Positions 16,886-63,884 of a stretch of DNA of 64,000 nt are shown piece after piece. A program made the position numbers and the translations under genes. The stretch lies in the NCBI GenBank assembly GCA_964019415.1, contig OZ025874.1, forward strand, positions 8,538,125 through 8,602,124. Direction: 5' to 3'. Under the pieces are notes generated by a model, which saw nothing but the letters and a program-made list of their open reading frames with translations, was not told the DNA's origin and did not search any database. Positions within the stretch are counted from its first letter, which is position 1. Every line of letters starts with the position of its first letter. The stretch is from Ianthella basta. Taxonomy: Eukaryota; Porifera; Demospongiae; Verongiida; Ianthellidae.

Positions 16886-19800
16886 TCAATGGTGGTGGTG
16901 ACCACCCCAGTTACAACAGAAAAGCCACCATTCTGGAGGGGGTAGTTCCCTATTGCAATCATCACAGTCATCTTCCTTGCTCTGTGCCGACTCCACTTGG
17001 ATGGTAGTCTGGTGGATGGAGTACTTATTCTTGAGCATCTGAGTTGCTAGGGAAAGGACTTCTTGGAAGACTGACTCCACAACAGGACTAGAGGCCCGGC
17101 CAGCTGGGGTTGGTCTATCCTCTGTCAACCCAGATGTACTCTGGCACGCGCTGGCACCTCCACAACCTGTACCACTGTCCTCCACCTCCACACTGGCCTC
17201 TCCAGCAGATCCAACAGAGCCTCCATCATCACTCACACCCAATCCTCCTTCAAAGTCCAACAGCAAGTCTTGGTTGCCCCCAGTCTGGCTCACCGGTGGC
17301 AACTGCTCCGCTGAGGCCTCCCCCTGACTTCTTTGAGGCATGTCTGCAAACAGGTGGGTGGAGACAGAAGGAGTACAATGCTATATACCGTATTCTCCCT
17401 AAAAAATTGTCACTTCGGAAAAACTTGTCGAAACGCATTCAAATTTCCGGCTTCCTAATATCGTCACATTACTCTAATAATTCGCCAGACAGCAAGTACA
17501 TTCCAATATTTTGTCATAATAAGCAGCCTCTAGAAGCACTGCAGTCTTTGTTCAGTGTCAGTTGTCTTTTTATGAGCAATATAAAAAAGACAAGTAGCAA
17601 GTATAAAGATTATAAGGCTTAGATCTCGTTCTTCATCATTGTGTACTCGTGAGAGAGCTACTGTGAGATGGATGCGGTACATGCATATATGGACTACAGA
17701 CCCTTGCTCTCCAGCACACATGCACGTACCAATGACAAGATGCACCGACAGTGCCACTTTGTCCATTGTGAGTGACCAGATGTGTAGTCCGTGAGCACGC
17801 TTCACTCCCTTCACTGCCTGCAGGTCATTCAGTACCTGTTGGTAGTCTACATTGCGAGGGGATGCTGCAGGGTGTCAGGGAGAGAGGGTGGGGGGGGGGG
17901 GGTGAGAGGAGGGGTGGTGGATGGAACAGGGGAGTGAGTAAATTGTGCACTATGTGCAAGTCAAATGACACTCGTACTGCACTGATCAGAGCACCATGCT
18001 GAAACAGAAAGAGCCACTATTGTAGCACACCTTCCATAAGCACTCTCAGTGCATCCCTGAGCACAGTCAGTGTGGAGAAGAGAACAAGGACAGAGAAGAG
18101 GAAAGTGCAGATGGGGTCTGCTAGGTGCCAGTCGGGCTAAATACAAGAGAGAGTAAGAGGAGCAGGAGAGAAGAGATGAAGTGAGCCACTGGATGAGCAG
18201 TAAATTGTACATTCGCACACAAGCATACATACGTTCACAGAAAATGGTGCATAGCTGGAGCATACACGTAGCTTACGTACACACACACACGCACGTACGC
18301 ATGCACGCACACATGCGTGCACACACACCACATACACACACACACACACACACACACACACACACACACACACACACACACACACACACACACACACACA
18401 CACACACACACACAAGCTGCCATTACAGCACTGGGACAAGAGCACTTACCCTGAACCGAATGATGTATGCTGCAATGACAACTCCAACACTTTGAATCAG
18501 ATCGCCAATCACATGAATGAAGGCAGCCTGAACATTGATGTTCTTGGGTTCCCTAATCCTCTGTGGCCCTCTCTCCTCAGTGAGTCCTTCCTCTACAGAA
18601 TTGCTAGCGGCTGCCACATCTTGCTGTGCCCTTGCCCTTTCCTCTGCTTTCCTTTTCCAGAAGAGTGCCTTCCAGCGTGTGCTGCCATGCACATGGGTAG
18701 TGTTGCCATGACTGTGTCCATTGTGGTCATGTCCATGGTCATGTTGATGTAACACCATGCACATGCTATAGGAAGGAGAGAAGAGACGGTAGAGGAGAAT
18801 GGAATGTGATGTGGAAGAAGGGGAGAAGTAAAGGGAGAAAAACGTAAGTGAATGGATCACTGATCATCAGGAAAAAGACAGACCGAACAGTTTAAGGTGC
18901 TGTTGCTAGACTCACAAGACATTGACAAAGACGCCCACGGTGGCAGTGATAAGCATGATGTTTGCATCAATCTCATAGTCTTGGTGGATGACTCGCTGGA
19001 CAGCCTCATACAGCAGCACCCCCGTGAGGACCCAGATTAGCAGCACTGACACAATCGCACCCAGCACCTCTGCAGGGGAGGGGTGGCAGTGGGGGTGAGG
19101 GTGGGGGGGGGCTTAAGAAGTTTAGAGCACTATCATTCTGTTGCAGCTTGGACAACATAAGGTGCAAATATAAATGTATTCATGCCTACACCACTGTCAA
19201 ATGCCAATCTGTCATACTATACTCCCACTCAACCTTCCACTTATGCGGTACACCACATACATACATACCTGCTCTGTGCCAGCCAAACGACATCATTTTG
19301 GTTGGGCTGCGACTGGCGATCCAGATAGCAAAGAGACTGATGAGGAAGCTTGCAAAATCAGACAACATGTGTGCTGCGTCAGTCATTATGGCTAGACTGT
19401 TGGACAGGCTACCTCCTGCAGGTGTAGGCAGAAAGTGGTGTACGTACAGTATAATGGTAGTGCAGAGAATGCTGCACACATCAGAGAGAGGCATTGTTAA
19501 ACCTTGCCTCCATATCAGATGGCATGCTTGTGACGTCTATTTAGGAATGTGCCTGATAAAATGGCTACAAATGGCTACTCCTATGTGTTAGTGGGCTTCA
19601 ACGAAAGTAACCAAAACCATGGCGAAGAACAATTGAAGGGCATTGATAACCTTCTTTCAATATATTGAAGACAACAGTGAAGCCAAATCCAGTCTGGAGT
19701 ACATGTAAGAGAAAAGCACCACAGGCTGCTCTAACCCCATTTGTTCTTTTCATAATTATTATTCTTATTCTTCTCCCCACAGAATTTTTGCATGCTTCTG

Positions 19801-21639
19801 GTGCATGATACAGGACCCAACCTAAGGACCCAAGTTGTGTATGAGGACTCGCGTATGGACACGAAGAGCAAATATCCAAGCGCTGGTGGCAATGCGATAT
19901 GTACAGCACTGAAGCTGGTAAGAAGTTGACAAACTACCGGCTACAGTATCGGTTATGTATATGAGCGTGACAAAATGGTGGCATTCAATGGTCCGTGTAT
20001 TACAATACCCCAATGCCACCATTTTGTCACGTAACCCAGTTCACAAAATGGTAGCATTCAATGATCCGTGTATTACGATACCCCAATGCCACCATTTTGT
20101 CACGTAACCCAGTTCACAAAATGGTGGCATTCAATGGTCCGTGTATTACGATACCCCAATGCCAGCATTTTGTCACGCTCACATACATAACCGTACGGTA
20201 GCAGGTTTATTTAGTGGCATAACTGTGCACGATGTTCTGCACGACCTTCATTTAATTTAACAAAAGGGTATTAGTCAGCGCAAGTATAAATCTGATGTAG
20301 TGATAGTCCTTTTGATATGCAAAAAGTGTACAAATTAGTGTATAAAAATTCTTAAAAAAAGGGATTTAGGAATGGCTGGCAGAAGATGCATAGAAGCAAG
20401 CAACAGTAACTCAACAGCATGATAAACCACATTTCCATGAGGTTCGCTCTACATTCCTAATTCCTTGTAGCTGCATAGATCCAAATGTCTAGCTAGCTAG
20501 TGCCATGCAGTTTCAAGGAAATTAGGAATGTAGAGCGAGCTTCACGGAAGTATAGTTAATCATGCTGTTGAGTTACAGTTGCTTGTTTCTATGCCTTTTC
20601 TGCAGACCATTCCCATATCCCTTTTAAATTCTTAAAGAATTTTTATACACTATTAGATCATACATTTCATGAAATAACACATAAGTGAGCAGCATGTGTC
20701 AGAAATAGTTAAACTTTTCACAGTCAACCAATAACAATCCCCCATAACAAGATTCTGTGTAGTATATGTTGGACACCCAGTTCACAACTAATCTTGCTGA
20801 ACGATGCAAGCTAGGACTGTCACAGTTTCACTAGGATTGTGTGAAAGGAATTGTACCAAGTGAATACCATCACAAGACCGGACTGGTATATGCAGATTCA
20901 TGGATCAAGTCACACCATTACCTTTGCTGTTCCCATTGACTGCATCACACACACACACGCGTGCACACACACACGCACGCACGCATGCACACACACACAC
21001 ACACACACACACTGCACAAGAAGTGAGCACTAAAAACTCCGTGCACAGTAAGGCCATCTCCATGGCCGCCATTAAAGTTCATGCCTATGTGCACCAAGAT
21101 TGGCAGCCTGATTGTCAGTAAACATTGGAGTAAATCATATAAAGCCCCACCCACCCACCCATGGTGCCCCACCCACCAAACACACCTACGATTTCAGCAA
21201 TCATGAACACAAGGGTGAGGGCCGATGCAAAGAGGAGCCTGTTGCGTGCCTTGTTGTTCTGCCGGCGCGGAGCAGGATGGCACTCACACCTGGGGGCTAC
21301 GGGAGGCGGGGTCTGTGGTTGGCCACGCCCACCTATCTTGAATTTCTTCCTGAAAGAGTCCCAGTTCACTCTATTCCTACTCTGCACAGCACCGTAACTC
21401 AAGTGATTGGTTTGATTGCGCGGGCCCAAAAGTGGCCTAACATCAGTGCCGTCTTCTTCACCCTCTTCCTCGATAGATCTCTGAGTACTTTTAAAACTAG
21501 CGCCAAAGTTGGGATGGTCGTCAGTAGTGCTACCTTCCTTCCTCAAAGCCGCCGCCAACGGCAACGTAGATCGCAAGGACGTCCCATATTCCACACATTC
21601 GTCGTCATTTTGAAAGGACATGCGTTCTTCAGCGCTCAT
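16886..21639 (-). CDS. ZnT-A, SLC30A zinc transporter (vesicular ZnT2/3/8-like)
   Basis: Seven exons on the minus strand: 21639-21186, 19415-19269, 19069-18916, 18765-18450, 18136-18031, 17864-17730 and 17343-16886; 589 codons, all phases consistent. A cation-diffusion facilitator: exports Zn2+ from cytosol to vesicles or outside, by proton exchange. Seen in order: a cytosolic N-tail of about 130 residues; TM1 ([18 protein letters not shown]); TM2 with the HxxxD site ([14 protein letters not shown]); TM3-4; a His loop ([19 protein letters not shown]); TM5 with the second HxxxD site ([11 protein letters not shown]); TM6 ([16 protein letters not shown]); then the C-terminal domain ([20 protein letters not shown]). 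Two oddities: an inserted Ser/Gly/acid-rich loop of about 95 residues splits the C-terminal domain, and after the family CxxC (CDDC) there is an extra tail [15 protein letters not shown]. Start is the first ATG of exon 1. Its near-twin is ZnT-B at 46.2-50.6 kb. Confidence 0.94.
17386..17684. mobile_element. About 300-bp insertion present in ZnT-A and absent from ZnT-B
   Basis: Intron 6 of ZnT-A reads CTATATA, then about 300 bp, then TACATGCATA. The same intron of ZnT-B (around 46.72 kb) joins the flanks directly. The ends CCGTATTCTC and (reverse complement) CCGCATCCATC are loosely alike. Probably a small transposon copy that arrived after the duplication. Confidence 0.55.
18270..18414. repeat. 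(AC)n microsatellite in ZnT-A intron 4
   Basis: AC run with interruptions in the intron between exons 4 and 5. The matching array in ZnT-B (47301-47369) is shorter. Confidence 0.95.
19965..20180. repeat. Three tandem hairpin units in ZnT-A intron 1
   Basis: Three consecutive units of about 65-80 bp. Each begins with ACAAAATGGTGGCATTCAAT (or one-base variants) and ends with its inverse AATGCCACCATTTTGTCACG, around a loop containing GTCCGTGTATTACGATACCC. Copied at about 48923-49138 in ZnT-B. Confidence 0.9.
20335..20655. mobile_element. Foldback (MITE-like) element in ZnT-A intron 1
   Basis: Two arms of about 130 bp, 20335-20463 and 20516-20655, are inverted imperfect copies (TAGTGTATAAAAATTCTTAA against TTCTTAAAGAATTTTTATAC; GCTCTACATTCCTAATTCC against AATTAGGAATGTAGAGCG). 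Copied at about 49293-49613. Confidence 0.85.
20947..21012. repeat. (AC)n microsatellite in ZnT-A intron 1
   Basis: AC/GC-interrupted run shortly after exon 1 on the coding strand. Copied near 49905-49970. Confidence 0.9.
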
Positions 21640-63734: not shown

Positions 63735-63884
63735 CTATACGCCACGAATAAGGTTCTCCAGCTCATGTTCGTAGTAGGCCAAGGTCAGCAGAGCACCGTA
63801 TGCGAGAAGAAAGGCTATGAGCTGAAGACCAAGATGAAACCAGCGGGACATCCCTTTGTAGTGCGTCTGATACAGTCCAGGAAG
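63735..63884 (-). CDS. ZIP-4, last exon of a further SLC39A LIV-1 gene (rest outside window)
   Basis: Exon 8 of the ZIP model: acceptor CTCAG, then [22 protein letters not shown]8 ([18 protein letters not shown]) and ELENLIRGV stop. The spacing of introns in the other copies puts exon 7 about 450 bp upstream, just beyond the right edge. It is the counterpart of ZIP-2 in the second unit. Confidence 0.85.
   Translation of the reverse strand, partial: LPGLYQTHYKGMSRWFHLGLQLIAFLLAYGALLTLAYYEHELENLIRGV

Follow-up and report, generated by a model that had tools for sequence, protein, structure and literature searches.

Interleaved ZnT and ZIP zinc transporter genes in the sponge Ianthella basta: a tandem array with a chimeric ZnT gene at its repeat junction

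Layout of the array

The 64,000-nucleotide stretch of Ianthella basta DNA analysed here (the window; positions 8538125-8602124 of contig C7 in an assembly of 209,087,449 bases and 96 contigs) contains an array in which genes of two zinc transporter families, the ZnT exporters (SLC30) and the LIV-1-type ZIP importers (SLC39), are interleaved. The array extends over 16.9-79.3 kb, with window numbering carried on along contig C7 for coordinates above 64000, and holds three intact ZnT and four intact ZIP genes. All seven are encoded on the minus strand, in the order ZnT1-ZIP1-(ZIP relic)-ZIP2-(ZnT exon relic)-ZnT2-ZIP3-(ZIP relic)-ZIP4-(ZnT relic)-ZnT3. The original prediction, made from the letters of the window, had proposed these families, order, strand and relics, and our spliced models and relic alignments bear it out: within the window, two ZnT and three ZIP genes are complete, and a fourth ZIP is represented by its last exon. 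Extending the contig rightwards, as it had suggested, revealed that ZIP4 is complete (72453-63735) and is followed by a third intact ZnT gene (79288-75849). Among the matches listed, none to ZnT or Zip lies right of the ZnT3 start (79288) on contig C7, and four open reading frames (ORFs) beyond ZnT3 (79.8-81.3 kb) contained no Pfam family. The features are as follows (aa, amino acids; TM, transmembrane segment).

16886..21639, minus strand: ZnT1, complete, SLC30A2/3/4/8 type, 7 coding exons, 507 aa, stop at 16886-16888, GT-AG introns
24345..30181, minus strand: ZIP1, complete, LIV-1-type, 8 coding exons, 560 aa
31124..32794, minus strand: ZIP relic of unit 1, a 3'-flank copy plus an intron-2 copy with the coding exons missing
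34135..42821, minus strand: ZIP2, complete, modelled with 9 exons, 558 aa, second intron of 4.8 kb
40828..41151, minus strand: DEAD/DEAH helicase fragment in ZIP2 intron 2
44917..45195, minus strand: ORF of a relic ZnT exon 2 (TM2-TM3)
46217..50597, minus strand: ZnT2, complete, a chimera with a ZnT1-type 5' part and a ZnT3-type 3' part
47960..48210, minus strand: switch interval of ZnT2, near the end of exon 2, intron 2 and the start of exon 3
53298..59795, minus strand: ZIP3, complete, the copy of ZIP1 in the second unit
60738..62408, minus strand: ZIP relic of the second unit, an aligned copy of the unit-1 relic
63735..72453, minus strand: ZIP4, intact, with only its last exon (63735..64000) inside the window
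75849..79288, minus strand: ZnT3, complete and intact, beyond the window's right edge

Genes were modelled by spliced protein-to-DNA alignment with GT-AG introns and penalties for stops and frameshifts; as the queries were proteins from the array itself, what the models demonstrate is that frames are open and exon structure is shared. None of the three ZnT and four ZIP models contains a frameshift or an internal stop. The ZnT alignments (ZnT1 21639-16943, ZnT2 50597-46274, ZnT3 79288-75906) have seven coding exons in common, and the end of ZnT1 was set at 16886 because each ZnT frame continues for 18 residues past the aligned part to a stop. The ZIP alignments (ZIP1 30181-24348, ZIP2 42821-34138, ZIP3 59795-53301, ZIP4 72453-63738), with eight or nine exons each, are directly followed by the stop; an extra 25-nt loop exon, modelled in ZIP2, ZIP4 and a dispersed relative that we call ZIP5, is uncertain in detail.

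The original prediction had seen no unrelated intact gene between the transporters, and none was recognised among the 28 array ORFs searched with Pfam, a partial scan of the ORFs in the array. ZnT or Zip exons above the Pfam cut-off are present in 4 of the 28, a DEAD helicase domain fragment in one, and matches that stay below cut-off in two more (zinc finger/OrsD; CNRIP1). The helicase fragment (PF00270, 9.7e-9, profile positions 2-59 of 167) has at least 149 matches in the genome; being the only hit above cut-off among these 28 ORFs from outside the two transporter families, and belonging to a repeated family, it was rejected as an unrelated nested gene. Together with a C2H2/OrsD-like stretch on the plus strand (43163-43558), which remains below cut-offs, it probably represents decayed repeat families. 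A search for structured RNA in the window gave no Rfam match at the gathering threshold. The only N in the 134 kb around the locus form one run of 5000 bases, which abuts the left edge of the window (C7:8533125-8538124) and is either a gap or a withheld stretch; an assembly gap inside the array was ruled out, as window positions 1-124000 contain no N.

The two transporter families

Pfam was run on the spliced ZnT1 and ZIP1 proteins. ZnT1 matches PF01545 Cation_efflux (4.3e-49) and PF16916 ZT_dimer (1.7e-15), both over the cut-off. In a phmmer search of PDB chains with a preliminary translation, the top match was ZnT8 (5e-89), followed by ZnT3 and ZnT4 (to 6e-80), with the solved ZnT1 chain (2e-41) and those of ZnT10 and ZnT7 far below; by this ranking among PDB chains the array ZnTs are predicted members of the SLC30A2/3/4/8 class. 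The array ZnTs resemble that class in their best PDB matches, in their HxxxD metal sites (HMLSD 167 in TM2 and HVIGD 336 in TM5 of ZnT1, the same in ZnT2 and ZnT3), in the His-rich loop found in all three, in ZT_dimer and, as we take it, in a C-terminal CxxC. They differ from it in forming three close tandem copies, one of them chimeric, and in closing with a short C-terminal tail that carries CC and HHHH. Near the N-terminus all three have DVRPLL or DVGPLL, even though conservation within the gene is lowest in exon 1. A 73-bp tandem repeat of 2.8 copies occupies ZnT intron 1 at 19970-20177 and 48926-49133, in a stretch that ZnT3 lacks.

ZIP1 matches PF02535 Zip (8.4e-60, profile positions 6-314 of 323). 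HNFADG and HELPHELGD are found in all five ZIP proteins, ZIP5 included, with the latter motif spanning an exon junction (HELPHEL|GD); ZIP1 has a His-rich loop between TM3 and TM4, with close forms in the other ZIPs, and this loop would lie on the cytosolic side. The ZIP1 N-terminus is hydrophobic and signal-peptide-like, and five N-glycosylation sites fall within the first 165 residues. These motifs, the TM3-TM4 loop and the long part before TM1 are those of LIV-1 ZIPs. In LIV-1 ZIPs a CPALLY motif sits before TM1, although ZIP7 and ZIP13 lack it. The array ZIPs depart from the group in this respect: CPALLY is absent from all five proteins, and a three-frame search for a CPALLY/PAL exon across exons 1-3 of ZIP1, ZIP2 and ZIP5 yielded only two chance PAL strings, which disposes of an exon overlooked in intron 2. 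We therefore call them LIV-1-type and not ZIP6/10-type. They also differ in their PDB matches, which are weak (E 0.001-0.03) and to bacterial ZIP structures only, with no solved ectodomain among them; against NCBIfam, ZIP1 likewise hit only bacterial ZIP models, all under their cut-offs.

Duplication history and dispersed copies

A block of ~29 kb is present twice, as unit 1 (18.35-46.0 kb) and unit 2 (47.30-75.6 kb). Aligned as three pieces overlapping by ~110 bp, the units differ by 203 mismatches over 27,712 aligned bases (0.73%). The junction lies within ZnT2. In a three-way ZnT alignment, all 234 informative sites upstream of the switch pair ZnT2 with ZnT1, while all 64 in the 3' half of the gene, along with all 257 in the poorly alignable ZnT end and flank, pair it with ZnT3; the switch interval itself contains one informative site each way. 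This split identifies ZnT2 as an in-frame join of a ZnT1-type 5' part and a ZnT3-type 3' part, as expected from unequal crossing-over, and both signs by which such an exchange was judged, a chimeric paralogue at the junction and a unit-sized direct repeat, are found here. The array is thus well explained by presumed unequal crossing-over between ZnT paralogues, and the locus before the exchange would have read ZnT_A-ZIPa-ZIPb-ZnT_B. That the two families were co-duplicated as a unit, as originally proposed, is supported, and made more precise, by the doubling of the block by exchange inside ZnT genes. Some 620 bp at 57995-58614 (ZIP3 intron 2, unit 2) are missing from unit 1.

Synonymous divergence (dS) is 0.049-0.057 between ZIPa and ZIPb and 0.104 between ZnT1 and ZnT3 (0.19 in exon 1, 0.07 in exons 2-7), rising to 0.12-0.15 in comparisons with ZIP5. 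By these values, both families have been duplicated at the locus for a comparable time. DNA identity of these older copies varies by segment from ~85% to 98%. The ratio of nonsynonymous to synonymous divergence (dN/dS) is 0.20-0.45 in ten ZIP pairs and 0.13-0.57 in three ZnT pairs, the 13 pairs being mutually non-independent and the ratios standing without a test against 1.

The relics record further copies. The 3'-flank part of the unit-1 ZIP relic (31124-32315) is 85% identical to 23215-24371, and its intron-2 part, corresponding to sequence beside ZIP exon 3 (32356-32794), is 94% identical to 67026-67465. In the ZnT exon 2 relic, the Pfam match covers 44992-45141, the stretch 44971-45377 is 88% identical to 77840-78263, and no other ZnT exon was recognised beside it. 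Both kinds of relic recur in the second unit.

The genome-wide search that the original prediction had called for was made for both families. The array holds 8 of at least 13 Cation_efflux matches in the whole assembly, the rest being on C17 (2), C44, C19 and C8, and 12 of at least 22 Zip matches, with two in ZIP5 and eight on C12, C9, C19 and C3; these counts are lower bounds, as only the best candidates were scored (for Zip, the best 66 of 20,372). ZIP5 is a full ZIP relative on the plus strand of C7, 1.24 Mb from the array at 7.32 Mb (exon 1 7316633-7316827, the rest to 7323850); when the 17 kb around it are compared with the ZIP2 region, similarity ends near the limits of the gene. The nearest ZnT and ZIP matches outside the array, among those listed, are ~220 kb apart on C19 or else on different contigs, so ZnT-ZIP adjacency is not common in this assembly. 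Array proteins aligned to nine other loci (ZIP on C19, twice, C12, C3 and C9; ZnT on C19, C8, C17 and C44) scored 77-300, as against 2209 for ZIP5, and these alignments served for motif reading only; the C8 match is a short one.

By eye, the C17 Cation_efflux locus is a ZnT5/7-like His-rich gene, and contig C44 (23.7 kb) carries a single open Cation_efflux frame that may be bacterial. A dispersed repeat of ~200 bp at 38320-38520, in ZIP2 intron 2, accounts for 42 of the 45 matches of a 601-bp probe (76-91%, on 21 contigs; best 40 of 416 candidates). To the left of the array, the plus strand carries a 581-aa open frame (12421-14163) that by eye suggests a secreted alpha/beta-hydrolase or lipase: its first methionines are close to a hydrophobic segment, and it contains a VHGYC stretch and an SHSHGG motif. 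Pfam at 0.01 assigned it to no family, and its sole match, to choice-of-anchor, was sub-threshold. The mitochondrial genome is contig C96 (21,233 bp), whose cox1 match reads TGA as Trp (9 TGA, no other stop); its plus strand carries, by eye, atp9, nad3, nad4L and other usual protein genes, and ARAGORN finds 25 tRNA genes. The presence of atp9 and a gene order like that of C96 are marks of demosponges, the class to which this contig assigns the assembly.

Possible role, competing explanations and known systems

ZnTs of the ZnT2/3/4/8 type load vesicles, and LIV-1 ZIPs import zinc at the cell surface. From these roles and the sequence features above, we propose that the two families act in series: the ZIPs would take up external zinc into the cytosol, and vesicles would then be loaded with cytosolic zinc by the ZnTs, which together would make an uptake-and-store route. 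Two ZnT paralogues flanking a ZIP pair would have allowed unequal crossing-over, and thereby a recent amplification with an intact chimeric ZnT in its middle, raising the capacity of the route through gene dosage. As a whole, a zinc-transport cluster amplified in this way is our best explanation, and we give it an even chance; the membrane locations, the metal carried, a common cell type and the benefit of dosage are all putative. The original prediction held that the two families oppose each other in transport direction. They need not, for a plasma-membrane ZIP and a vesicular ZnT, the locations suggested here, would act one after the other.

Several observations weigh against this proposal. 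No promoter common to the ZnT and ZIP genes was found, the sole long match upstream of both ZnT1 and ZIP1 being ZIP 3'-flank sequence. Within 500 bp of the starts, metal-response-element cores are absent from all three ZnTs and three of the five ZIPs, and the two cores each at ZIP1 and ZIP3 are no enrichment over the window's ~1.6 per kb; neither a shared promoter nor metal-response elements were convincing as candidates. The DxxxLL motif is a marker of vesicle or endolysosome residence, and the dileucine-like motif of the ZnTs is a weak sign of it because ZIP1 contains four instances of this pattern. ZIP5 persists 1.24 Mb away with no ZnT near it among the matches listed. Finally, the divergence between units is uneven: one end shows 1 mismatch in 2,998 bases and the other 2 in 7,047, the central ~16.7 kb between these ends have 177 (1.06%), and the other 23 fall in the initial 996 bases, a part where ZnT_A sequence in unit 1 faces ZnT_B sequence in unit 2. 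A simple recent copy does not predict such a pattern, which could come from gene exchange among ZIP copies or exchange between two haplotypes.

The alternation may instead be a by-product without function, if a ZnT and a ZIP were neighbours by chance and the flanking ZnTs recombined whole units. We see this neutral course as a serious possibility, somewhat short of an even chance. It accounts for the repeat structure just as well as the dosage reading does. An exchange point inside ZnT means that every unit must include the intervening ZIPs. With ZnT paralogues flanking the ZIPs, co-duplication is automatic, and ZIP5 is a dispersed copy with no ZnT near it among the matches listed; the locus hence does not show matched dosage, which the original prediction had read from co-duplication. 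The dispersed ZIP5 and the absence of a common regulatory sequence among those sought also fit neutral hitch-hiking, as do the relics, which show that copies at the locus decay too. Against it stand the open frames and dN/dS below 1 in all seven genes, and the finding that, among the matches listed, ZnT and ZIP adjoin nowhere else in the assembly, the C19 pair being the closest. As a rough guess, chance ZnT-ZIP neighbours would be found in a few per thousand genomes (~5 ZnT and 6 ZIP loci, with an assumed 25,000 genes), and one case noticed post hoc says little for selection.

It is unlikely, in our judgement, that the 29 kb of unit 2 represent the alternative haplotype, misjoined in tandem, and that the true locus has ZnT-ZIP-ZIP-ZnT only once. 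The 0.73% mismatch is within the range of allelic copies, the uneven divergence leaves part of this account standing, and the 5000-N run lies at the window's left edge, but no N occurs inside the array, near-identical unit ends around a 1.1% middle are unlike evenly heterozygous alleles, and the join within a paralogous gene yields a clean in-frame chimera. Furthermore, a 661-bp ZnT probe has three matches only, all in the array, leaving no separate haplotig of the ZnT gene, and an alternative haplotig elsewhere was rejected on this ground; the matches of the 601-bp ZIP2 intron 2 probe lie in both units, in ZIP5 and in the dispersed repeat (again best 40 of 416 candidates). The older A/B and a/b copies are linked regardless: were the doubling an assembly error, the ZnT-ZIP-ZIP-ZnT linkage, with copies ~2-15% apart, would remain. 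A purpose of the cluster other than zinc storage, for example in the handling of manganese or cadmium, seems very improbable given ZnT sites of HxxxD/HxxxD and a ZIP motif of HELPHELGD, not EELPHE; the EELPHE form is that of ZIP8/14, and the former two motifs are linked to zinc. Going beyond the zinc-transport cluster that we favour, a co-regulated functional SLC30 and SLC39 cluster, the first in animals, working as a module for zinc uptake and vesicle loading, with linkage kept in demosponges and dosage selected here, perhaps in a zinc-storing or secretory cell, is a doubtful prospect.

To our knowledge, zinc importers and exporters belong to unrelated families that usually lie apart in animal genomes, and it is unusual to see two complementary, mutually unrelated transporter families joined at one locus. 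The original prediction knew of no animal array pairing the two, and a limited literature search, which cannot prove absence, agreed in finding no described animal SLC30/SLC39 cluster; such an absence is weakly supported. MTP1 is in the same CDF superfamily as ZnT. According to its abstract, PMC2855318 describes MTP1 of Arabidopsis halleri, a zinc/proton antiporter, as having five paralogues with differing fates; the gain in copies of a zinc transporter is shared with our array, whereas that abstract reports no interleaving with ZIP genes. A. halleri HMA4 is a zinc transporter whose triplication, as presented in the abstract of PMC3749932, combines three tandem copies, gene conversion among paralogues and a proposed dosage benefit; however, HMA4 is one family of P-type ATPase in a plant, with expression and selection measured, and the sponge array interleaves two unrelated families and is known from sequence. 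Of the systems compared here, the A. halleri copy gains (HMA4, MTP1) are the closest analogue. The main text of a study of the common carp (PMC4281218) does not use the words tandem, adjacent or linked. PMC13058987 names a 'zinc transporter 2-like' gene of the sponge Haliclona simulans as one hub of a larval module, which shows only expression of such a gene in a sponge.

The same limited literature search yielded little on zinc transport in sponges. In its four close ZIP copies, its three ZnTs and the fresh chimera, the array gives a clear example of unequal exchange shaping a gene cluster, and it can be compared with the metal-tolerance loci of Arabidopsis halleri. A locus that links and co-amplifies ZnT and ZIP would offer a natural test of whether selection in animals favours serially acting transporters that are matched in dosage.

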